Positions 1,119 to 10,106 of a stretch of 15,618 nt of DNA are shown piece by piece (position 1 is the first letter of the stretch; every line of letters begins with the position of its first letter). The stretch lies in NCBI GenBank assembly GCA_003162555.1, contig PMNQ01000062.1:1-15618 (forward strand), in the 5' to 3' direction. The DNA comes from Gammaproteobacteria bacterium (GTDB lineage: Bacteria > Pseudomonadota > Gammaproteobacteria > Steroidobacterales > Steroidobacteraceae). The notes beneath the pieces were generated by a model. That model saw nothing but the letters and a program-made list of their open reading frames with translations, ran no database searches and had not been told where the DNA came from. Position numbers and translations under genes: made by a program.

Positions 1119-1194
1119 TGGTGGGTCGGGTGGGGCTCGAACCCACGACCAACGCCTTAAAAGGGCGCTGCTCTACCGACTGAGCTACCGACCC
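1119..1194 (-). tRNA. tRNA-Lys(UUU)
   Basis: On the minus strand the 76-nt sequence folds into a full cloverleaf. The acceptor stem is GGGTCGG with CCGACCC, then discriminator A and an encoded CCA. The D-stem is GCTC/GAGC. The anticodon stem is GCGCC/GGCGT around the loop CTTTTAA, giving anticodon UUU (Lys). The variable region is five bases, and the T arm is GTGGG-TTCGAGC-CCCAC. Its 3' end faces the integrase gene, as for a tRNA used as an integration target. The gene looks intact, so the element's attachment site must restore the 3' end. Confidence 0.97.
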
Positions 1195-1212: not shown

Positions 1213-1246
1213 AAGCAAAACGCCCGCTCCTTGCGAAGCGGGCGTT
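1211..1246 (-). terminator. Rho-independent terminator of the TonB-dependent receptor gene
   Basis: A perfect 10-bp stem AACGCCCGCT/AGCGGGCGTT (1237-1246 and 1219-1228) closes an 8-nt loop and is followed on the minus strand by TTTTGCTTTA. It starts about 38 nt after the receptor stop codon and ends before tRNA-Lys, so it separates the receptor transcript from the tRNA. Confidence 0.85.
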
Positions 1247-1283
1247 CCTGCAACAGGCCGGCTGCCGGCGCTGAATTTGCGGC

Positions 1284-3806
1284 CTAGAACTTCTGCCCGA
1301 ACTTGATGCCGAAGTTGCGCGGCATGATCGGAATGATGCGCGGATTCGACAGACAATTCGAGGCGGCGCACTCGGCAGCTCGTGCCAGCTCTCCCCGCTT
1401 GTCGGTCAGGTTGCCAACGTAGGCTTCCAGCGTCCAATTGCTCTTTGCGGTACCGATAGAGAAATCGAAGCTGGAGTAAGCCGGCGAATCACCCACGAGC
1501 GCGTTTTGCGGCGCCTGGAGACTGAAGGTGGTCGCGCCGGTGTAGACACCTGCAAGTTGCACGAAGCTGTCGTAGCCGTTCCCGTTGAATTGATAGCGCG
1601 CGGTCGCGTTGGCCTTCAGCTTCGGGATGCCGGGAAGCTGCGTACCGGAAGGAGCATCCAGTGCATCGGGGGTGCATGTTGCATTCGGCACGCCGAGCGC
1701 TGATGGCTGACAGAAATCAGTGGTCGTATTGGCCTTCACGTACGTGCCCGAGAGCGACAGCGTGAGGTTGTTCATGGCCAACCAATTGAGCTCTGTTTCC
1801 AAGCCTTCGGTCCGCGCGTCACCAGCGTTCACCATGGACGTGATGCCGTTCTCTCCCTGGATGGCAACCGTCACGCCCTTCCAGGCCTCATGGAAAATTG
1901 CGCCGTTGAAGCGCAGCGTGTTGCCAAGCCACGCCGTCTTCCAGCCAATCTCGATGTTGGTCAGCGAATCGGACTTCCAGGTCTTGGCCTGCGGGCGCCG
2001 GTTGTTGCCGCCCGGCCGGTACCCAGTCGAGTAGGTGGCGTACACCATGTGGTTCGGGTCGAACTGGTAGGTGAAGTTGAGGCGTTTCGTGGCTCCCTGT
2101 TCCTTAACCTGGCTGGCCGTGTTGATGCACGGCTTGGTGGACCCCGCCGGGGAATCCGCAAAGCAGATGTGGGTGCCGCTGGCGCTTGGCAAGTTCGGGC
2201 CGTAACCGAAGAAGCCGTACAGCGTGTTGTTGGTGCTGAATTCGCGAACACCAAGGCTTGCCTTGAATTTGGACGTGAAGTCATGCGTCACGTCTGCGAA
2301 CAGCGCTGCATCGCGGTCGGAGCGCAGCTGGTCCGAGAGGTACAGGATGCCGGGGTTGCGCGGCACGGACCAGTAGTCCGAAAGCCCGTCAATCCGGAAT
2401 TCCGCGCGAATCGCATCCGTCTGCTTCTGGAAGAAGGCTCCCGCGATCAACCGGGTCGGAAGATCCTGCGGCGTGCTGATCCGGAACTCATGACTGAGCT
2501 TGGTGTAGTCGTCGTGGTTCTGGACGTACTGCGTGGGATCAGCCAGCGTCGGATTCATGTCCAGCTTGTTGTTGTTCGGGTTGTCCTGGTGACCGACATC
2601 CGGCAGATAGGTATAGCAGACGTGGTAGCAGTAATCGTACTGCACTGAATACAGCGCGTAGTCGTACTGGTTATCGACGTGCCGCGTAAACCAGCTGCCG
2701 GAATAAACGACATCCAGGTTGGAGATCTTGCCTGTGACCGTCAGCGCCGACAGCGTCCACTTGTCATTGTTGTACGTCGGCTTCATGTCGTAGGTGTTCA
2801 GGTCACCGACCTTGGGGTCGAAGCCGCTGTCACCGTGCGCGTTCTGCTCCTGGTGCATGACCGTCGGCAGCACAGTCCAATGATCGCCGAGATCCAGCTT
2901 CAGGGCCGCGCGGCCACCGTAACTCTCTGTGGAATTGAAATTCTTCTTCACCAAGGCGGAATTGTTGACGTCGATGGGGTGAGGATTCGCGGTGTAACTG
3001 GAGTAGTCAACGGGGTCATTTGTGGGATCGACCGTCCAGAGCCAAGGCCGCGATGCGGATGGCGTGGGGGAAAATGTCCCACCGGCGGGCCGCTCGTAGT
3101 GGAGCGTCTTGGGCACGTTGTTGATGTAGCCGCCTTCCTTGTCGTAGAACCCAACGAGGCGGATTGCTGCGTGGTCGCCGGCCGGGAGGTTGACGAAGGC
3201 TTCAAACGAGGAACCGGGGCCACTGTTCTTGCCGACGACGGTGCCCTTGATGTTGTAGCCGGCCTCAAATTTGGTTGGATCGGGCTTCTTCGTGATGAGG
3301 CGCAGCGTACCGGCCATCGAACTCGCGCCATACAGGGTGCCTTGGGGGCCCGCCAGACCCTCGACACGCTCCATGTCGTACATGTGCACGTCGAGCACGC
3401 CGGAAATGGTGGTGACCGGGGTTTCATCCACGTATACGCCGGTCGAGGGCGCAGGTCCCGCATGCAGGTTTGAATAACCCGCCGAAATACCACGGAAGTA
3501 GATCTGTGACTGGCCGGGGCCAAGGGTCTGGAAGGACATGCTCGGCATGAACTTCGCGTAGTCGACGAAGTTCGCGACCTGCAGCTGCTCGAGCCTTTCG
3601 CCGCCCAGCACCTGGATGCTGATGGGTACCTTCTGCACGTCCTCGACGCGCTTCTGCGCCGTAACGATGATTTCCTCGAGGCCGCCGGCGTTTTCCGTCT
3701 GTTGCGCTTGTGCCACACTTCCCCATGCGAAGGCAGCAGTAGCCAGAGGCATACCGACCCAATTGGCTGCAGTTCTATGCAGCTTGCGCTTGCGACTCCG
3801 AGTCAT
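1284..3806 (-). CDS. TonB-dependent outer-membrane receptor
   Basis: An 840-residue gated outer-membrane channel that would import a scarce substrate using energy from TonB-ExbBD. The order is a very basic N-terminus (RSRKRK), a signal peptide ending near VAQA|QQ (after residue 34), a TonB box EEIIVTA (44-50), a plug domain (about 55-175) containing GPQGTLYGASSMAGTLRLI (153-171), and a beta-barrel ending in phenylalanine (GQKF), the outer-membrane assembly signature. There is no N-terminal STN signalling domain, so it should not work through an anti-sigma factor. All eight cysteines occur as four close pairs: 393/397, 548/560, 699/711 and 813/818. The ATG is preceded by a strong ribosome-binding site, GAGGGGAG, five bases upstream. 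The substrate cannot be read from the sequence; siderophore-specific genes are absent nearby. It lies downstream of a TPR-sulfotransferase gene. Confidence 0.95.
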   Translation of the reverse strand: MTRSRKRKLHRTAANWVGMPLATAAFAWGSVAQAQQTENAGGLEEIIVTAQKRVEDVQKVPISIQVLGGERLEQLQVANFVDYAKFMPSMSFQTLGPGQSQIYFRGISAGYSNLHAGPAPSTGVYVDETPVTTISGVLDVHMYDMERVEGLAGPQGTLYGASSMAGTLRLITKKPDPTKFEAGYNIKGTVVGKNSGPGSSFEAFVNLPAGDHAAIRLVGFYDKEGGYINNVPKTLHYERPAGGTFSPTPSASRPWLWTVDPTNDPVDYSSYTANPHPIDVNNSALVKKNFNSTESYGGRAALKLDLGDHWTVLPTVMHQEQNAHGDSGFDPKVGDLNTYDMKPTYNNDKWTLSALTVTGKISNLDVVYSGSWFTRHVDNQYDYALYSVQYDYCYHVCYTYLPDVGHQDNPNNNKLDMNPTLADPTQYVQNHDDYTKLSHEFRISTPQDLPTRLIAGAFFQKQTDAIRAEFRIDGLSDYWSVPRNPGILYLSDQLRSDRDAALFADVTHDFTSKFKASLGVREFSTNNTLYGFFGYGPNLPSASGTHICFADSPAGSTKPCINTASQVKEQGATKRLNFTYQFDPNHMVYATYSTGYRPGGNNRRPQAKTWKSDSLTNIEIGWKTAWLGNTLRFNGAIFHEAWKGVTVAIQGENGITSMVNAGDARTEGLETELNWLAMNNLTLSLSGTYVKANTTTDFCQPSALGVPNATCTPDALDAPSGTQLPGIPKLKANATARYQFNGNGYDSFVQLAGVYTGATTFSLQAPQNALVGDSPAYSSFDFSIGTAKSNWTLEAYVGNLTDKRGELARAAECAASNCLSNPRIIPIMPRNFGIKFGQKF

Positions 3807-3851
3807 TGAAGCTCCCCTCGAACCGTTGGTTTTAGCACCGACCTACCGCGG

Positions 3852-3879
3852 AGTGTATGCCAGGCCACGGCAAAATCAA
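3852..3879 (-). promoter_or_regulatory. Candidate sigma-70 promoter of the TonB-dependent receptor
   Basis: On the minus strand TTGATT (3874-3879) and TACACT (3852-3857) are separated by 16 nt, each matching four of six consensus bases. The -35 overlaps the stop codon of the sulfotransferase gene, and the -10 lies about 45 nt before the receptor ATG. No terminator is visible between the two genes, so read-through from upstream is also possible. Confidence 0.4.
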
Positions 3880-5930
3880 AACCTGGGTACGGCCGGATAG
3901 GCCGTCAGCACCGGACCCAGTGTTTCCGCGAGCGGCCCCAGCCAGGGTTCATAGTGCCGCCACTGGTCCACCCCGGCGCGCGAGATGGGCTGGCGCACCT
4001 GCTGGGCGCTGGCGGTACGCACCGCCCGCTCATTTTCGTAGAAGCGCAGGCAGGACTCCTCGAACTCCAGCTCGCAGTAGGCCAGCAGGCGGCGCACCTC
4101 GGCCTCTGTGTCCTCGACCAGGGTCTCGTGGAACACCCGATGCACCCGGCCGGGTAGCACTGCGTCGTAGTGGGCCATCAATTCCACGTAGTCGCGATAG
4201 AAATGACCGATGTCCTCGAGGCTATAACTGAAATTCTGGCCGCGGGCAAAGTGCTGTTTGTACAGGGAGAAGCCACAAGCCATCGGGTGGCGTCGTGCAT
4301 CGATGATCTTCGCGCGGGGCAGGATCAGCTGTATCAGGCCGATGTGCATGAAGTTGTTGGGCATCTTGTCGATGAAGCGAGGCCTGCCGCTCTTGCGCTG
4401 GATACGGGTGTCCTCGAGATACTGCTCGCCAAGCTTCCTGCACTCGTCAGCCGACAGGTTGGCCATCTCCATTGGGTATCGCGGCCCCTCGTCCTTCGAT
4501 CCGCGAGAGCCGAGCCTGCCGGCCATGGTGAAGATGTTCTGCAGCTCCATGGTTCCCTCAACCGCAGAATGGCTGGCGAGGATCTGCTCGATCAGCGTCG
4601 ATCCGGAGCGGGGCAGACCGACGATGAAGATGGGATCCGGGGCCTGGCTGCCATGGCCGGCCCGCGCTGCAAAGAATTCAGCGCTCAGGTGGCGGCGCGT
4701 GCGCCGCACCAGTCCGGTGGCGTCTTCGGAGAGATAGCGGATGTCCTTGAGCCGCAGGCGGTTGCCCTCAGCATAGTGCTCGAAGGATTCAGCGTATTGC
4801 TCCAGATCCTCGAGCGCCTTGCCCAGCGCGAATTCAAAATGGTAGCGATCCTCATTGCTTAAGCTTTCATTGCCGAGCTGCGCGCGCATCGCCGCGATCT
4901 GCTCCGCGGAGAAACGCAAAGTCTTGAGGTTTGCCAGGCTCCAGTAGGCTTCGCCGCATGTGGGCAGCAGCGCGATGCAGCGCCCGTAGGCGTTGATGCT
5001 TTCCGCTTCGCGGCCCACGGTCGAAAGCGCGTGGGCGTAGCTCATCCAGATCTTGGGTTGATCTGGATTGGCCTTCAGCACTCCCGCGAACAACTCGATC
5101 GACTCGGCGAAGTCGCCGATCTTTGCGAGCACCACGGCCTTCAGATTCTGGTAGCCGGTGTTGCGCGGCTCGAGTGCGATCAGCTGCTCGACCTGCTGGA
5201 GCGCAGCGACCGGTTTGTTGATCCGATGCAGCACGATCGCATAGTTGTGGCGCGCACCGGGGAAGCTCGGCGCGAGTTCCAGGCAGCGTGCCAGCAGGTT
5301 CTCTGCGTCCGTGTAGCGCCCCAGGCGCGCCGCAACCTCGGCCAGCATTCGCAAGGCTGCGACATCCGTCGGATGCTGCATCAGGTGCGCACGCAGCGCG
5401 TACTCCGCTTCCGGGATGCGGTTTTCGACCAGCGCCGCGGCCGCACCCATCAGCTTCGGATCGTGGGTCGAGTACTTGATGTGGTTAGCGAAAGCGGCAT
5501 CAGCCGCAGCGGCATCGCCGCTCTCTCTCAGCAGGTCACCCAGCGCGCGCCAGGCATCCGGCAGGTCGGGCTTCAGTTCCACGGCGCGCCGCAGCTTGAC
5601 AATTGCCTCCTCTGGATTGCCGGTCTCGGCAAGCAACTGCGCCAGCTCATAGTGCGCGATCGCCCAGCGGTGCTGCGCATCGACCAGCGCGGTCAGGGTG
5701 CGCAGCGCCGCGGCGGAATCGCCGGCGGCGCGCTGCGCCTTGCCGAGCAGCAATGTTGCGGGCGCGTAGTTCGGAACCGCCTTGAGGATCTCGTTCGCCT
5801 GCTCGATGGCGAGCGCCGGATCGCGCTGCAGCAGTTCCTCGGCGTGCGCCAGCGCCACCTCGAGCGTGCCGGTGGGCTCAGTGGCGCCAGTCGCGCCGGC
5901 GGCGCCAGTCTGGTCTGCGGTGCTGCTCAT
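3876..5930 (-). CDS. TPR-repeat / sulfotransferase fusion protein
   Basis: A 684-residue predicted cytoplasmic protein. Residues about 25-400 are tetratricopeptide repeats (for example 90-150, 190-255 and 260-335). Residues about 430-640 form a sulfotransferase domain of the PF13469 type. The 5' phosphosulfate loop is IFIVGLPRSGSTLIEQIL (434-451). The 3'-phosphate site is around RRHPMACGFSLYKQHF (546-561, with R547 and S555), and DKMPNN (521-526) is another hallmark. Such enzymes move sulfate from PAPS to a hydroxyl or amine; the acceptor is unknown, and the TPR part probably binds a protein or peptide partner. No signal peptide or membrane segment is visible. The ATG overlaps the aminotransferase stop codon as ATGA, indicating translational coupling. 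The family often occurs near TonB-dependent receptors in Gammaproteobacteria and sphingomonads (from memory), and one lies just downstream here. Confidence 0.9.
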   Translation of the reverse strand: MSSTADQTGAAGATGATEPTGTLEVALAHAEELLQRDPALAIEQANEILKAVPNYAPATLLLGKAQRAAGDSAAALRTLTALVDAQHRWAIAHYELAQLLAETGNPEEAIVKLRRAVELKPDLPDAWRALGDLLRESGDAAAADAAFANHIKYSTHDPKLMGAAAALVENRIPEAEYALRAHLMQHPTDVAALRMLAEVAARLGRYTDAENLLARCLELAPSFPGARHNYAIVLHRINKPVAALQQVEQLIALEPRNTGYQNLKAVVLAKIGDFAESIELFAGVLKANPDQPKIWMSYAHALSTVGREAESINAYGRCIALLPTCGEAYWSLANLKTLRFSAEQIAAMRAQLGNESLSNEDRYHFEFALGKALEDLEQYAESFEHYAEGNRLRLKDIRYLSEDATGLVRRTRRHLSAEFFAARAGHGSQAPDPIFIVGLPRSGSTLIEQILASHSAVEGTMELQNIFTMAGRLGSRGSKDEGPRYPMEMANLSADECRKLGEQYLEDTRIQRKSGRPRFIDKMPNNFMHIGLIQLILPRAKIIDARRHPMACGFSLYKQHFARGQNFSYSLEDIGHFYRDYVELMAHYDAVLPGRVHRVFHETLVEDTEAEVRRLLAYCELEFEESCLRFYENERAVRTASAQQVRQPISRAGVDQWRHYEPWLGPLAETLGPVLTAYPAVPRF

Positions 5931-7111
5931 GTCAGGCTCTCGCAGAAGCGCCGGATTCGTTTTGCAGCCTCGAGCAACACGGCTTCATCCGTGGCGAAGC
6001 AGGCACGCACAAAGCCCTGCGCCGCGGCGCCGAAGGGCACGCCATCGAGCAGCGAGACGCCCTCGGCGCGATACAGTTGGTGTACGAACTGCTCGCCGCT
6101 GAGACCCGTGCCACGGATGTCGATCAGCAGGAACATGCCGGCCTGCGGCCAGCAGGCGCGGATTCCGCGGATGCCTGCGAGTCCCTCGAACAGCACGGCA
6201 CGGCGGTGGCGGCAATACTCACGCACCCTGCCCTCGCACTCCTCCGCCATCTCGAGCGCGGTGATGGCGGCCTCCTGCACGAAGCCCGGCAATCCATAGA
6301 GCATGCATTGCGCCAGATCGTGGGCGCGGTTGATGAAATCGACCGGCCCGACAATCCAGCCTGTACGCCATCCTGTCATGGCGTGCGTTTTCGACAGACT
6401 CGCCACGGTCAGCGTCCTCTCAGGGTACCGCGCGCCGATGCTCGGCACGCGGCCGTCATCGGCGATGCCGGCATACACTTCATCCGACACCAGCCACAGT
6501 TCGTGGCGACGCGCGATCGCCACCAGGCCGTCGACTTCTTCCGCAGTGAGCACCACGCCGCTCGGATTGTTCGGCGTGGCGACGAAGATGGCGCGCGTGC
6601 GCGGCGTGATTGCCGCTTCAATCGCCGGCAGATCGGGGTGGAAATCACGCGTCGCCGGCGTGGCCACCGGCACCAGCTGCGCGCCCGAGGCCTTGATGGT
6701 GGCCGGATAGGTGGCGTACATGGGATCGAGTGCGATCACCTCATCGCCGGGGCCCGCGAGGCAGAGCGAGGCCACGAACAGGCCGTTTTGCGTGCCGCCG
6801 AGCACGATGACGTTGTCCGCCGTGACGCTCTGGCCGCTGCGCGCCGCGTGGCGCGCCGCGATCGCCGCGCGCAGCGCCGGGCGGCCGGCGGTCTCGGTGT
6901 AATGTGTGTCGCCGCCACGCATGCGCGCGATCGCGGTGTCGATGACCGGCCCGGGTGTGTCCAGATCGGGATCACCGACGCTGAGCACGATGACATCCTT
7001 GCCGGCGGCCGCAGCCTGGCGCGCCTCCCAGTGCAGCACCCAGGGGTCAGTGCCCTCGGGCGCGACGCGTTCGGCGAGCGCGGCGAAGCGCGGTTTGCGC
7101 GGCGCGTTCAC
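5927..7111 (-). CDS. aruH: PLP aminotransferase, AruH-like (arginine:pyruvate transaminase)
   Basis: A 394-residue fold-type I class I/II aminotransferase, the usual family length. SLSKTHAMTGWRTGW (238-252) carries the Schiff-base lysine K241. TPNNPSG (179-185) and SDEVY (209-213) contribute the PLP-contacting Asn, Asp and Tyr. R369 in GFVRACF is the likely substrate-carboxylate arginine. Stretches such as VLSVGDPDLDTP (42-53), the HAMTGWR region and AQCMLYGLPGF (267-277) resemble P. aeruginosa AruH as I remember it; AruH moves the alpha-amino group of L-arginine to pyruvate, giving 2-ketoarginine. The adjacent AruI-like decarboxylase supports this, since aruH and aruI are neighbours in Pseudomonas. 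Translation starts at GTG, which overlaps the decarboxylase stop as GTGA, with GAGG eight bases upstream. A broader substrate range is possible, so the symbol is tentative; the aminotransferase family itself is certain. Confidence 0.82.
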   Translation of the reverse strand: MNAPRKPRFAALAERVAPEGTDPWVLHWEARQAAAAGKDVIVLSVGDPDLDTPGPVIDTAIARMRGGDTHYTETAGRPALRAAIAARHAARSGQSVTADNVIVLGGTQNGLFVASLCLAGPGDEVIALDPMYATYPATIKASGAQLVPVATPATRDFHPDLPAIEAAITPRTRAIFVATPNNPSGVVLTAEEVDGLVAIARRHELWLVSDEVYAGIADDGRVPSIGARYPERTLTVASLSKTHAMTGWRTGWIVGPVDFINRAHDLAQCMLYGLPGFVQEAAITALEMAEECEGRVREYCRHRRAVLFEGLAGIRGIRACWPQAGMFLLIDIRGTGLSGEQFVHQLYRAEGVSLLDGVPFGAAAQGFVRACFATDEAVLLEAAKRIRRFCESLT

Positions 7112-8721
7112 TCGAAGGCCTCAGCGCGCACTTCGATGACACTCACCTGGCGGCGTGCGGCGAATGCCTTAAGCGCGCGCGTGAGCCCTTCGGTGCTGTC
7201 AATGAGCTGGTGCGCATAGCCGTAGGCGCGAGCGATGTGGCTGAAGTCCGGTGGCCGCACGTCGACGCCCACCGGAACAATGTGCGCGGCCAGCATCGCC
7301 GATTTGATCTCGCGGTAACCATAGTTGTTCCAGACGATGATCGCAGACCAGGCATCGACATCGCGCGGCACCGCCAGCTCGCCGAGCGAAAACTGCAGGC
7401 CACCATCGCCAACCAGGCACACCACCGGCCGGTCGGGCGCGGCCAGGCCCGCACCGGTTGATGCAGGCAGCGCGTAGCCGAGCGTGCCGTAGCCAGTGGC
7501 GCTGTTGAACCAGGAACCGGGGCGCGCCGCTGCGAAACCCAGGTTGCCCGCGTACACGGTCTGCGTCGAATCGCCGACCAGGATCGCATCAGGCACTGTG
7601 TCGCGTATGCAATCGAGAAACGCGATCTCGCGGCGCATGGCCGGAGACAGTTCCGCCAGCGCGGCGGCGGTGACGTCCTTCACGCGCTGCGCACCGCTGC
7701 CGGAGCGCGCAGGCCCCAGCTGCTGCGCCAGCAGTCCTTTCATGGCGGCGCGCGCATCGGCGCGCAGCGCCAGCGCCGGACGCGCGTTGCGCGTGAGCTG
7801 CGAGGCGTCGATGTCGACGCGGATGAGATTGGGGTGCGCGGGAAAATCCGCGACGCAGTAAGCGTCGTAGTCGGTCTGACCGAGCTCGGTGCCCACCGCA
7901 AGCACGACATCGGCGGCCGCGATCATGCTGCGCACGGCGCCCAAAGTCGGGCTCACTGAAACGCCCAGCGCGTGTTCCGGCGGCAGCAGCCCGCGCGCGT
8001 TGATCGTCATGACCAGTGGCGCATCGAGCCGCTCGGCGAGCTGGCGCAACTCCGCGCCTGCCGCCAGCGCACCGCCGCCTGCCAGAATCAGTGGCGTCTT
8101 CGCGCCGCGCAGCCGCGAAGCCGCGTCGGCCAGTGCGTCTGCCGGAGCCACAGGCAAGGCCGATGCAACACTGGGTGCTGACGCTTTCGCAGGCACCGGG
8201 AGGCCCGCGGCATCCTCAGTCATCAGGTCGCGCGGAATCTCGATGTAGGCGGGACGCGGCCGCGAGCTCGCAAATCCCGCAAAGGCTTCGGCGATGGCCT
8301 CGGGGAGCTCTGCAGGCTTGCCAATGCGCCGGCTCAATCCGGAAACCCGTGCGGCCACGCCGAGCTGGTCCGTCATCTCGTGCAGGTAGCCGCGGCCGGT
8401 GCCAATCTCGCTGCGGCGGTTTTCGCTCGCGATCACCAGCAGCGGAATCGAATCGCCGTAGGCCTGGCCCATGGCGGTGACAATGTTCGTGAGCCCGGGT
8501 CCGGTGATGGTAAAGCACACGCCGGGCATGCGCGCGACACGCGCGTAGCCGTCAGCCATGAAGCCGAGCCCCTGCTCGTGGCGCCCGGTCACGTGCCGGA
8601 TGCGGGAACCGGCCAGGCCACGATACAGCTCGATGTTGTGGACACCGGGTATGCCAAATACGTGCTGCACACCCTGCGCCTCGAGAGTCTCGATCAGGTA
8701 GCTCCCGAGCGTCTTCTTCAT
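7108..8721 (-). CDS. aruI: TPP-dependent decarboxylase, AruI-like (2-ketoarginine decarboxylase)
   Basis: A 537-residue thiamine-diphosphate enzyme of the acetolactate synthase/decarboxylase superfamily, predicted to convert 2-ketoarginine (5-guanidino-2-oxopentanoate) to 4-guanidinobutyraldehyde in the arginine transaminase pathway. The N-terminal PYR domain (1-165) contains GIPGVHNIELYRGL (23-36) and the catalytic Glu E49 in GRHEQG. The middle domain is about 190-335. The C-terminal PP domain has the cofactor motif from GDGG (438-441) to NNYGY (465-469). The GVHNIELYRGL and GTGRGYLHE motifs match my memory of annotated 5-guanidino-2-oxopentanoate decarboxylases; a true biosynthetic IlvB would sit with ilvN. 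The ATG at 8721 was chosen because AGGA lies seven bases upstream and the family N-terminus begins there; an in-frame start at 8874 would add 51 residues encoded over queC. It overlaps the aminotransferase by 4 nt. Sulfopyruvate- or phosphonopyruvate-type decarboxylases are alternatives. Confidence 0.82.
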   Translation of the reverse strand: MKKTLGSYLIETLEAQGVQHVFGIPGVHNIELYRGLAGSRIRHVTGRHEQGLGFMADGYARVARMPGVCFTITGPGLTNIVTAMGQAYGDSIPLLVIASENRRSEIGTGRGYLHEMTDQLGVAARVSGLSRRIGKPAELPEAIAEAFAGFASSRPRPAYIEIPRDLMTEDAAGLPVPAKASAPSVASALPVAPADALADAASRLRGAKTPLILAGGGALAAGAELRQLAERLDAPLVMTINARGLLPPEHALGVSVSPTLGAVRSMIAAADVVLAVGTELGQTDYDAYCVADFPAHPNLIRVDIDASQLTRNARPALALRADARAAMKGLLAQQLGPARSGSGAQRVKDVTAAALAELSPAMRREIAFLDCIRDTVPDAILVGDSTQTVYAGNLGFAAARPGSWFNSATGYGTLGYALPASTGAGLAAPDRPVVCLVGDGGLQFSLGELAVPRDVDAWSAIIVWNNYGYREIKSAMLAAHIVPVGVDVRPPDFSHIARAYGYAHQLIDSTEGLTRALKAFAARRQVSVIEVRAEAFE

Positions 8722-8776: not shown

Positions 8777-9466
8777 TCAGGCGTAGCGGGTCGGATCGGC
8801 AACGCCGGCAGCCAGGAATCCCTCGCGGCGCAAGCGGCAGGAATCGCAGCGGCCGCAACCGCGCCCTTGCGCATCCGCCTGGTAGCAGGACACCGTCATC
8901 GCGTAGTCGACGCCCAGGCTTAAGCCCTCGCGGATGATGCGATCCTTGCTCCAGTGCTGAAGCGGCGCGTGGATCTGCAACGCCGCTCCTTCCACTCCCG
9001 CACGCGTGGCGAGCCGTGCCAGCCGTTGGAACGCGGCGATGAATTCCGGCCGGCAATCGGGGTAACCGGAGTAATCGACCGCGTTGACGCCTATGACCAG
9101 ATGCCGCGCGCCCAGCACCTCGGCCCAGGCCAGCGCCAGCGACAGCAGCACCGTATTGCGCGCGGGCACGTAGGTGATGGGGATGCCGCTGCTCGGCCGT
9201 TCAGGTACGGCAATGGCGGTATCGGTGAGCGCCGAGCCGCCGAGTGCGCCCAGATCCACGTGCATGGTGCGGTGTTCCCGTGCGCCGAGCGCGAGCGCTA
9301 CGCGCGCGGCGGCCTCGAGTTCGCTGTGATGACGCTGGCCATAGGCGACCGACAGCGCGTAGCACTCGTAGTGCTGTGAGCGCGCCCAGGCCAGCGCCGT
9401 GGCGGAGTCGAGCCCACCGGAGAGCAGCACGACCGCGCGCTGCGGCGCGGACTCGTCAGCGGCCAC
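8777..9466 (-). CDS. queC: 7-cyano-7-deazaguanine (preQ0) synthase
   Basis: Converts 7-carboxy-7-deazaguanine to preQ0 with ammonia and ATP in the cytoplasm, on the route to queuosine. The protein is 229 residues with this start. The PP-loop is SGGLDS (16-21), near the N-terminus as expected. [13 protein letters not shown] (104-116) and [14 protein letters not shown] (129-142) are typical of the family. The zinc site is C194, C204, C207 and C210 (SCYQ...GCGRCDSC). There is no ATG close to the PP-loop. GTG at 9466 was chosen because GGGGTGA sits five bases upstream; GTG at 9475 is the alternative. The gene overlaps the end of queE by 11 nt, and QueE makes its substrate. Confidence 0.95.
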
Positions 9467-10106
9467 GCTCTTCACCCCACAACAGCTTGTGCAGCTGCAC
9501 CTGGAACCGCACCGGCAGACGATCGGCGAGTATCCACTCGGCAAGCGTACGCGGCTCGAGCTGTCCGTAGCTCGGCGAGAACAACACACCGCAGCGCTGG
9601 TGCAGCGCCTGCCCGGTCAGCAGCGCGCGGCTCCACTCATAGTCCGCGCGCGAGGTGATCACGAACTTGATCTGGTCAATCGGTCCGAGCGTCTGCAACT
9701 GCGGGTACAGATTGCGCGGTTCTTCGCCGGACCCCGGCGTCTTGACGTCGACGACGCGGCTCACGCGCGGATCGATCCCCTCAACGCTCAGCGCGCCGCT
9801 GGTTTCGAGTGAGACGCGAAAGCCGCGCTCGCACAGTTCGTGCAGCAATGTGACGCAGGCGCGTTGCGCCAGCGGCTCGCCGCCGGTCACGCACACATCA
9901 TGGGTATCGAACTGCGCGACGCGCTCGAGGATGTCGGGCAGGCTCCACCACTCCCCGCCATGGAAGGCGTAGGCCGTATCGCAGTAGTGGCAGCGCAGCG
10001 GGCAACCGGTGAGCCGCACGAATACTGTCGGCATGCCGGCAAATTGCGCCTCGCCCTGCAGCGAGTGGAAAATCTCGGTGAGCTTCAGCCGCGGCGCGGA
10101 ACTCAA
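9456..10106 (-). CDS. queE: 7-carboxy-7-deazaguanine synthase (radical SAM)
   Basis: Radical-SAM enzyme that rearranges 6-carboxytetrahydropterin to 7-carboxy-7-deazaguanine. The protein has 216 residues. The 4Fe-4S motif CPLRCHYC gives C35, C39 and C42 (CX3CX2C). [14 protein letters not shown] (11-24) is the family N-terminus, and VTGGEPL (73-79) is the SAM-contacting GGE motif. [11 protein letters not shown] near the C-terminus is typical. The start is TTG at 10106, overlapping the cpoB stop as TTGA with GGAAGG just upstream; no ATG or GTG lies between this TTG and the conserved N-terminus. Translation is probably coupled to cpoB. It makes the substrate of the next gene, queC. Confidence 0.95.

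Follow-up and report, generated by a model that had tools for sequence, protein, structure and literature searches.

The DNA analysed here, hereafter the window, is a stretch of 15,618 nucleotides that makes up one entire contig (C244; PMNQ01000062.1) of a 72%-complete genome (G000) from the order Steroidobacterales. Between queC and a tRNA-Lys gene it carries, on the minus strand, genes for a thiamine pyrophosphate (TPP)-dependent decarboxylase, a pyridoxal phosphate (PLP)-dependent aminotransferase, a tetratricopeptide repeat (TPR)-sulfotransferase (ST) and a TonB-dependent receptor (TBDR) (Table 1). An initial annotation of the sequence had proposed that the four form a cassette in which import and catabolism of an arginine-like or guanidino compound are coupled to sulfation of a small molecule or peptide, with unrelated genes sharing a promoter as the simpler alternative. 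Open reading frame (ORF) calls bear out its placement of the four genes and of both 4-nt overlaps. We examined the conservation of the cassette, the predicted structures of its surface proteins, and its likely substrates.

Conservation of the four-gene cassette

Beyond the two overlaps the genes are closely spaced, with 69 nt from the ST stop to the TBDR start and 55 nt from queC to the decarboxylase. The complete gene order with both overlaps is found in G002; G012 has the same order and both overlaps, with the TBDR on a second contig, and G013 has the same order and keeps the aminotransferase/ST overlap, with the decarboxylase on a second contig, so that the overlaps are present in all three genomes wherever both genes share one contig. 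In each of them the TBDR is followed by tRNA-Lys and queC lies on the other side; the decarboxylase orthologues stand at 81% in G002 and 86% in G012. Because the same order is found in G002, G012 and G013, it is more than chance, and the coupling is not accidental. In G014 the four genes are clustered over two contigs in another arrangement, in which the decarboxylase and aminotransferase run away from the ST and the TBDR points back at it, and in G126, of another genus, the queC/tRNA-Lys site likewise has the aminotransferase gene next to it, together with carnitine-type genes. Fetched loci were called with a self-trained, codon-usage gene caller whose starts are approximate (3716 for the window TBDR, against 3806 for the ORF).

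Table 1. Features of the window and their positions.
Feature	Position	Strand	Remarks
TPP-dependent decarboxylase, AruI-like, PRK07524 subfamily	7108..8721	minus	537 aa from that start; longest open frame begins at 8874
PLP aminotransferase class I/II, AruH-like by context	5927..7111	minus	394 aa; PF00155
TPR-sulfotransferase (ST)	3876..5930	minus	684 aa; PF13469 and TPR families
TPR superhelix of ST, about residues 23-420	4671..5864	minus	AlphaFold2 helices; Foldseek top match is the O-GlcNAc transferase TPR domain, 1w3b
Predicted sulfotransferase domain of ST, residues 428-684	3879..4649	minus	like tyrosylprotein sulfotransferases
TonB-dependent receptor (TBDR)	1284..3806	minus	840 aa; PF07715 and PF00593
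D382-Y383-A-L-Y386-S-V-Q-Y390-D391 motif, candidate sulfate acceptor	2634..2663	minus	conservation; directly after strand 364-382
Predicted long extracellular loop of TBDR, residues 383-425	2532..2660	minus	43 residues; AlphaFold2 secondary structure
Overlap decarboxylase/aminotransferase, 4 nt	7108..7111	minus	ORF coordinates
Overlap aminotransferase/ST, 4 nt	5927..5930	minus	ORF coordinates
queC, upstream boundary	8777..9478	minus	TIGR00364, above its cut-off
tRNA-Lys(TTT), bounds the cassette	1119..1194	minus	
Terminator-like hairpin after TBDR, 14-bp stem	1217..1248	minus	pattern match only; between TBDR stop and tRNA

Linkage of the catabolic and surface genes across the order

The wider linkage was assessed in 296 genomes drawn from the order, with the aminotransferase clade delimited at E <= 1e-90 and the ST clade at E <= 1e-190. 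The former was present in 37 of the 296 genomes and the latter in 85, and the ST accompanied the aminotransferase in 35 of those 37 as against 50 of the 259 others, counts that are not corrected for relatedness and on which Fisher tests ignore phylogeny. The two genes share a contig within 30 kb in 12 of the 37 genomes. G000, G002 and G013 have them side by side, in G158, G169 and G262 they are separated by 4-6 kb, and in six genomes of genus g32 that represent a single arrangement the distance is 21-28 kb; in the loci read, the intervening genes are catabolic. In 23 of the 37 the distance exceeds 30 kb or the genes fall on separate contigs, many of the assemblies being fragmented, and in two the ST is absent at the threshold. 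Despite these cases, the linkage of the four genes that was initially proposed recurs in other genera in rearranged form, and because it does so the neighbourhoods of relatives do not show a consistent separation of the ST and receptor from the aruIH-like pair. It is highly probable that the catabolic and surface genes are functionally linked.

The TPR-sulfotransferase

The ST matches PF13469 at 160.5 bits, in addition to TPR families, and its AlphaFold2 model has a predicted local distance difference test score (pLDDT) of 83 and a predicted template modelling score (pTM) of 0.68. The N-terminal half of this model is a TPR superhelix like that of O-GlcNAc transferase (OGT), and the nearest fold to the catalytic domain in Foldseek searches is that of the protein-tyrosine sulfotransferases (TPSTs); the best 50 Foldseek rows for the entire model are TPR proteins, and the TPSTs appear among the other matches. 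The loop for 3'-phosphoadenosine-5'-phosphosulfate (PAPS) is present, as are an Arg, a Glu, a Lys and a Ser (R441, E462, K522 and S641) that are invariant in 14 sequences, aligned to a tick TPST, and that we presume to have catalytic roles. These features make it fairly probable that the ST acts on a protein. TPR-sulfotransferases were found in Alpha-, Beta- and Gammaproteobacteria, and the window genome holds two further such genes in tandem on contig C26 (L295, 48-4074), on which no TBDR was found.

Pairing of the ST with a TonB-dependent receptor

The TBDR consists of a PF07715 plug and a PF00593 barrel. Its AlphaFold2 model (pLDDT 81, pTM 0.83), whose nearest solved folds are the TBDRs FyuA (4epa), Fiu and FhuA, was made, like our TBDR profile, from an alignment of 36 rows that were picked after the motif described below had been seen, and with three sequences lacking it (L306, L307 and L308) left out, so that the invariance of those rows is biased.

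In the close clade, 33 of 40 ST genes are followed directly, at no more than 300 bp, by a TBDR gene in the same orientation, one has a convergent TBDR (G014) and one has a TBDR upstream at 1.8 kb; in a more distant set of 36 ST genes, 24 have a TBDR within 300 bp. Both TBDRs and ST loci were picked by hand from hit lists rather than at random, and TBDR-like ORFs shorter than 450 aa and TBDR matches above E 1e-10 were excluded. The pair persists in genomes without the aminotransferase clade, in some of them near genes for GcvT-like or GbcA-like proteins (L192, L193). One family found near such pairs bears the Pfam name 'amine oxidase', an identity weakened by its best NCBIfam match, which is CrtO-like and under the cut-off. 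The ST and TBDR distance matrices are correlated (r 0.85 over 56 pairs and 0.82 over 32 close pairs; in neither test did any of 1000 permutations reach the observed value), a value not corrected for species relatedness, and shared ancestry alone could also produce such covariation. Taken with the adjacency, a functional pair of ST and TBDR is quite probable.

Related STs are also encoded on plasmids, and 19 of 47 such records, chosen by hand, were opened; three of them, which have no usable annotation (L374, L385 and L387), were searched for TBDRs only. A TBDR adjoins the ST in eight of the 19 and belongs to the same gene run in one more (Asticcacaulis), and in four records the ST has an autotransporter or a type-I-secreted adhesin no more than three genes away. 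On the Asticcacaulis plasmid (L370, 2786-8860) genes for a TBDR, a family-2 sulfotransferase, an Asp/Asn beta-hydroxylase and a TPR-sulfotransferase stand one after another, with overlaps of a few bases among the last three, and form a possible multi-enzyme receptor-modification operon. At L376, L378, L379 and L386 the TPR-sulfotransferase genes have autotransporter genes nearby, in two cases along with glycosyltransferase genes, or adjoin an operon for type I secretion of an adhesin.

A candidate acceptor motif in the TBDR

The window TBDR contains the segment DYALYSVQYD at the start of a predicted long loop, which is placed on the extracellular side by barrel topology and a 2-residue turn at 362-363. 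Y383, Y386 and Y390 are present in all 35 TBDRs of the same sequence family, which was made by sequence clustering and not by motif; D382 is found in 34 and D391 in 33. The three tyrosines are among 25 residues conserved at 90% or more out of 266 long-loop residues. Typically the aligned segment reads DYSDYSxxYD, and the Novosphingobium partners of the nearest STs have DYSYYSVAYD or DYTYYSVTYD. Of the ST-linked TBDRs, 57 of 62 have [DE]Y..Y, four have the second tyrosine only and one has neither; L092, a TBDR at the end of a contig, is kept separate from these counts. The motif thus marks a receptor subfamily in which ST pairing is common, and it is a candidate modification site. That the neighbouring TBDR is the protein sulfated by the ST is a tentative proposal, and that the sulfate is carried by the motif tyrosines is more doubtful.

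The catabolic genes and their substrate

The decarboxylase has three TPP-enzyme Pfam domains and scores 705.9 bits against PRK07524 (5-guanidino-2-oxopentanoate decarboxylase; cut-off 500). A second decarboxylase paralogue in the window genome, on contig C226, also passes this model with 588 bits, so the model is broad and its name does not fix the substrate. The C226 gene (L353, L395) adjoins a TBDR gene encoding a DYTNY motif, and no ST was found in the stretch fetched there. The aminotransferase matches PF00155 at 216 bits, and among the best 25 of its 85 NCBIfam matches none reaches its cut-off (top match 281 bits against 422) and none is an AruH model; AruH is therefore a name by similarity and context only. 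GntC, the (S)-gamma-hydroxy-L-arginine cyclodehydratase (NF041364), was rejected as an identity for this protein at 277.6 bits against a cut-off of 415.

In genus g32 the aminotransferase/decarboxylase pair lies inside a large cluster that encodes a carnitine 3-dehydrogenase (607 bits, cut-off 592) together with an acyl-coenzyme A (CoA) dehydrogenase, an acyl-CoA ligase and proteins resembling crotonobetainyl-CoA hydratase, thioesterase, beta-keto acid cleavage enzyme, MttB, GcvT, dimethylargininase (DDAH) and agmatinase, all named, apart from the first, from matches below NCBIfam cut-offs or at domain level. A carnitine 3-dehydrogenase homologue (E <= 1e-100) occurs in 30 of the 37 genomes with the aminotransferase clade, as against 29 of the 259 others, and it shares a cluster with the pair in g32 and in parts of g29. 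In the window genome the carnitine-type genes are on contig C106 (L388, 7175-14668), where homologues of carnitine dehydrogenase, TetR and acyl-CoA dehydrogenase face those of hydratase, CoA ligase, thioesterase and beta-keto acid cleavage enzyme. Carnitine and gamma-butyrobetaine degradation is thus a partial parallel, in that families of carnitine 3-dehydrogenase, beta-keto acid cleavage enzyme and crotonobetainyl-CoA enzymes are clustered with the pair in related genera; the difference is that in the window genome they lie away from the cassette.

Outside the order, the aminotransferase is found near a decarboxylase and a Lys/Arg/Orn-type ATP-binding cassette (ABC) transporter binding protein in Pseudomonas frederiksbergensis and Leeia, the binding proteins scoring 236 and 235 bits, below the cut-off of 256; most other named Pseudomonas, Paraburkholderia and Azospirillum loci had no such decarboxylase within the 10 kb read on each side. 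In Leeia and in a Hyphomicrobiales metagenome-assembled genome (L232, L239), aminotransferase-decarboxylase pairs lie near genes for dimethylargininase-like proteins and ABC transporters, which makes a methylarginine pathway possible there.

Because Lys/Arg/Orn-type binding proteins occur near homologous pairs and the chain length suits the carnitine-type genes, a C5 amino acid bearing a positive group at the delta position would fit as substrate, arginine first and delta-methylated ornithine as well. Carnitine-type enzymes expect a four-carbon chain, and trimethyllysine was rejected because its product after transamination and decarboxylation would have five carbons. The catabolic half of the initial proposal is plausible, since transamination followed by decarboxylation would suit a cationic C5 amino acid; a guanidino substrate is unproven, and we name arginine only provisionally. 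The pair resembles AruH/AruI of Pseudomonas aeruginosa, whose sequences were outside our comparison, and AspC/IlvB1 of Sinorhizobium meliloti in combining an aminotransferase with a PRK07524-type decarboxylase, and differs in being joined to an ST and a TBDR and in having a putative substrate. The S. meliloti ilvB1 gene lies downstream of aspC, and IlvB1 prefers 5-amino-2-oxopentanoate, the ornithine-derived keto acid, on which it is sevenfold more active (PMC7268258).

A delta-N-methylated ornithine or similar betaine in place of arginine is a somewhat unlikely alternative, which concerns the catabolic half only and is compatible with sulfation of the receptor. The route it would follow, from 4-trimethylaminobutyraldehyde to gamma-butyrobetaine and through carnitine-type steps to glycine betaine and demethylation, we regard as equally speculative. 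The carnitine 3-dehydrogenase, MttB-like and GcvT/demethylase-like genes of the g32 clusters speak for such a substrate, as does the GbcA-like oxygenase gene (248 bits against a cut-off of 670) near ST-TBDR pairs in genomes without the aminotransferase clade, whereas the DDAH-like and agmatinase-like genes in the same g32 clusters and the Lys/Arg/Orn-type binding proteins near homologous pairs favour arginine-type substrates.

Discussion

The explanation that best accommodates these findings, which we advance with reserve, is a four-gene, presumably co-transcribed operon of two modules, one a receptor-sulfating surface module and the other a catabolic module for a C5 amino acid. The ST would be a cytoplasmic, PAPS-dependent protein sulfotransferase whose TPR superhelix may hold the unfolded receptor before export, and whose TPST-like domain would then sulfate the TBDR, with Tyr383, Tyr386 and Tyr390 (DYxxYxxxYD), singly or together, as the likeliest sites, at the mouth of the long extracellular loop. 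The negative charge of the sulfate could help the receptor bind a cationic or quaternary-amine nutrient. The aminotransferase and the decarboxylase may convert a C5 amino acid positively charged at the delta position (methylated arginine and ornithine being possible besides arginine) to a C4 aldehyde, and the acid formed from it could enter a carnitine-type CoA pathway. The broader generalization, that bacteria of at least two classes sulfate their own TBDRs by a dedicated, adjacently encoded TPR-TPST-like enzyme at tyrosines of the loop mouth for the capture of cationic amines, we consider speculative and, on present evidence, somewhat unlikely.

Several observations weigh against sulfation of the receptor, or against parts of that proposal. 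The sequence of the ST domain matches the polyketide sulfotransferase CurM no less well than TPST, and to our knowledge there is no biochemistry for any of these proteins. For five of the 40 close ST genes no TBDR was seen in the stretch fetched, two of these having fewer than 500 bases left, and in G150 (L154) and G280 of g32 a carnitine dehydrogenase gene follows the ST so closely that a TBDR could not fit between them, unlike in their relatives. Loop residues 394-419 have a pLDDT below 50. The motif is not confined to ST-linked receptors: in unlinked TBDRs, meaning those with no ST in a fetched stretch of often a few kb, so that some may be mislabelled, [DE]Y..Y is found in 17 of 58, the second tyrosine only in eight (seven of which belong to a second TBDR family where the alignment is doubtful) and neither in 26, with seven unalignable. 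Some of the unlinked holders of the motif lie beside genes that we take, from our own reading of their sequences, to be FecI/FecR-like (L314, L317), and ST-linked TBDRs of Pseudoalteromonas (two aligned, two more unmatched by the profile) and Novosphingobium capsulatum are without it. The motif was accordingly rejected as an exclusive mark of ST-linked receptors, and its presence in 17 of the 58 unlinked TBDRs makes it, in part at least, a trait of the subfamily. Where other STs neighbour autotransporters or an adhesin, those surface proteins are poor in acidic-Tyr sites (0, 4, 0 and 6), with one [DE]Y..Y in total; because of this, and because glycosyltransferases stand beside two of these STs, such STs may modify another residue or a glycan. 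On the catabolic side, G001 has the carnitine-type cluster without the aminotransferase clade, so this cluster can stand alone.

It is in this light that a rather unlikely alternative has to be weighed, in which the substrate of the ST is a glycan of the cell surface or some other protein of the envelope, a shared role in uptake is all that ties the TBDR to the ST, and the aromatic cluster in DYxxYxxxYD has a structural or ligand-binding function. The motif's retention in ST-less TBDRs speaks for this alternative, tyrosines would, as a matter of general knowledge, suit cation-pi binding of amines, and glycosyltransferases lie beside STs in Enterobacter and Azospirillum; none was seen among the genes of this operon in NCBIfam and Pfam matches, however, and the tight pairing and co-divergence of ST and TBDR also tell against that alternative. 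Sulfation of a small molecule or secreted peptide, such as a product of the aminotransferase/decarboxylase pathway or a ligand re-imported by the TBDR, is improbable, and the form of it in the initial annotation drew no support: protein sulfation is set above it because the catalytic domain is nearest in fold to TPSTs, the TPR superhelix is OGT-like and a TBDR is the usual partner. That the genes are unrelated and simply share a promoter behind tol-pal-queEC is highly improbable, since the linkage is repeated and rearranged, with at least five arrangements (the g1 operon, G014, g30, g32 and G262 of g29) and 12 genomes with close linkage set against the 25 in which the ST is distant, on another contig or absent and the lack of promoter-like sites in the window (0 against 1.8 expected).

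Sulfation of the receptor by the ST, as we favour, would have partial precedents. Protein-tyrosine sulfation is well known in animals, and the ST is likened by its fold to metazoan TPST1 and TPST2; it differs in being bacterial, in its fused OGT-like TPR superhelix and in having a TBDR as usual neighbour, and its activity on tyrosine is putative. O-GlcNAc transferase and SPINDLY share with the ST a TPR superhelix before the catalytic domain, which in them is a glycosyltransferase rather than a sulfotransferase. In the literature consulted, the bacterial case is RaxST of Xanthomonas oryzae, a parallel that we draw without sequence comparison; raxST shares its operon with genes for type I secretion (raxSTAB), whereas the partner here is an outer-membrane receptor. 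RaxST has tyrosine sulfotransferase activity in vitro, and its hypothesised target is a secreted product (PMC4216712). In search listings of open-licence papers we found no report of TPR-sulfotransferase/TBDR pairing or of receptor sulfation.

If sulfation of the receptor proves true, the TPR-sulfotransferases would gain a substrate and TBDRs a covalent modification that could alter binding, including that of phages or toxins that enter by them, and receptor sulfation would constitute a post-translational control of nutrient uptake. The tie of the aminotransferase/decarboxylase pair to carnitine-type genes in turn suggests a CoA-dependent route from arginine-like amino acids that is unseen in gene names alone.

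Flanking features of the window

Upstream of the cassette the minus strand reads tolQ-tolR-tolA-tolB-pal-cpoB-queE-queC, in which all genes except queC are presumed identities, named by recognition of their reading frames. The single terminator-like hairpin that follows the TBDR is weak evidence for a transcript end, since the same pattern scan gave 13 sites in the window against 9.7 expected. Beyond tRNA-Lys, at 1-942, lies a gene for a tyrosine-type integrase (Arm-DNA-bind_3, Phage_int_M) that is cut by the contig end. Because the relatives G002, G013 and G012 have an amino acid permease gene near the equivalent place instead of an integrase, an element may have entered at tRNA-Lys in the window genome.

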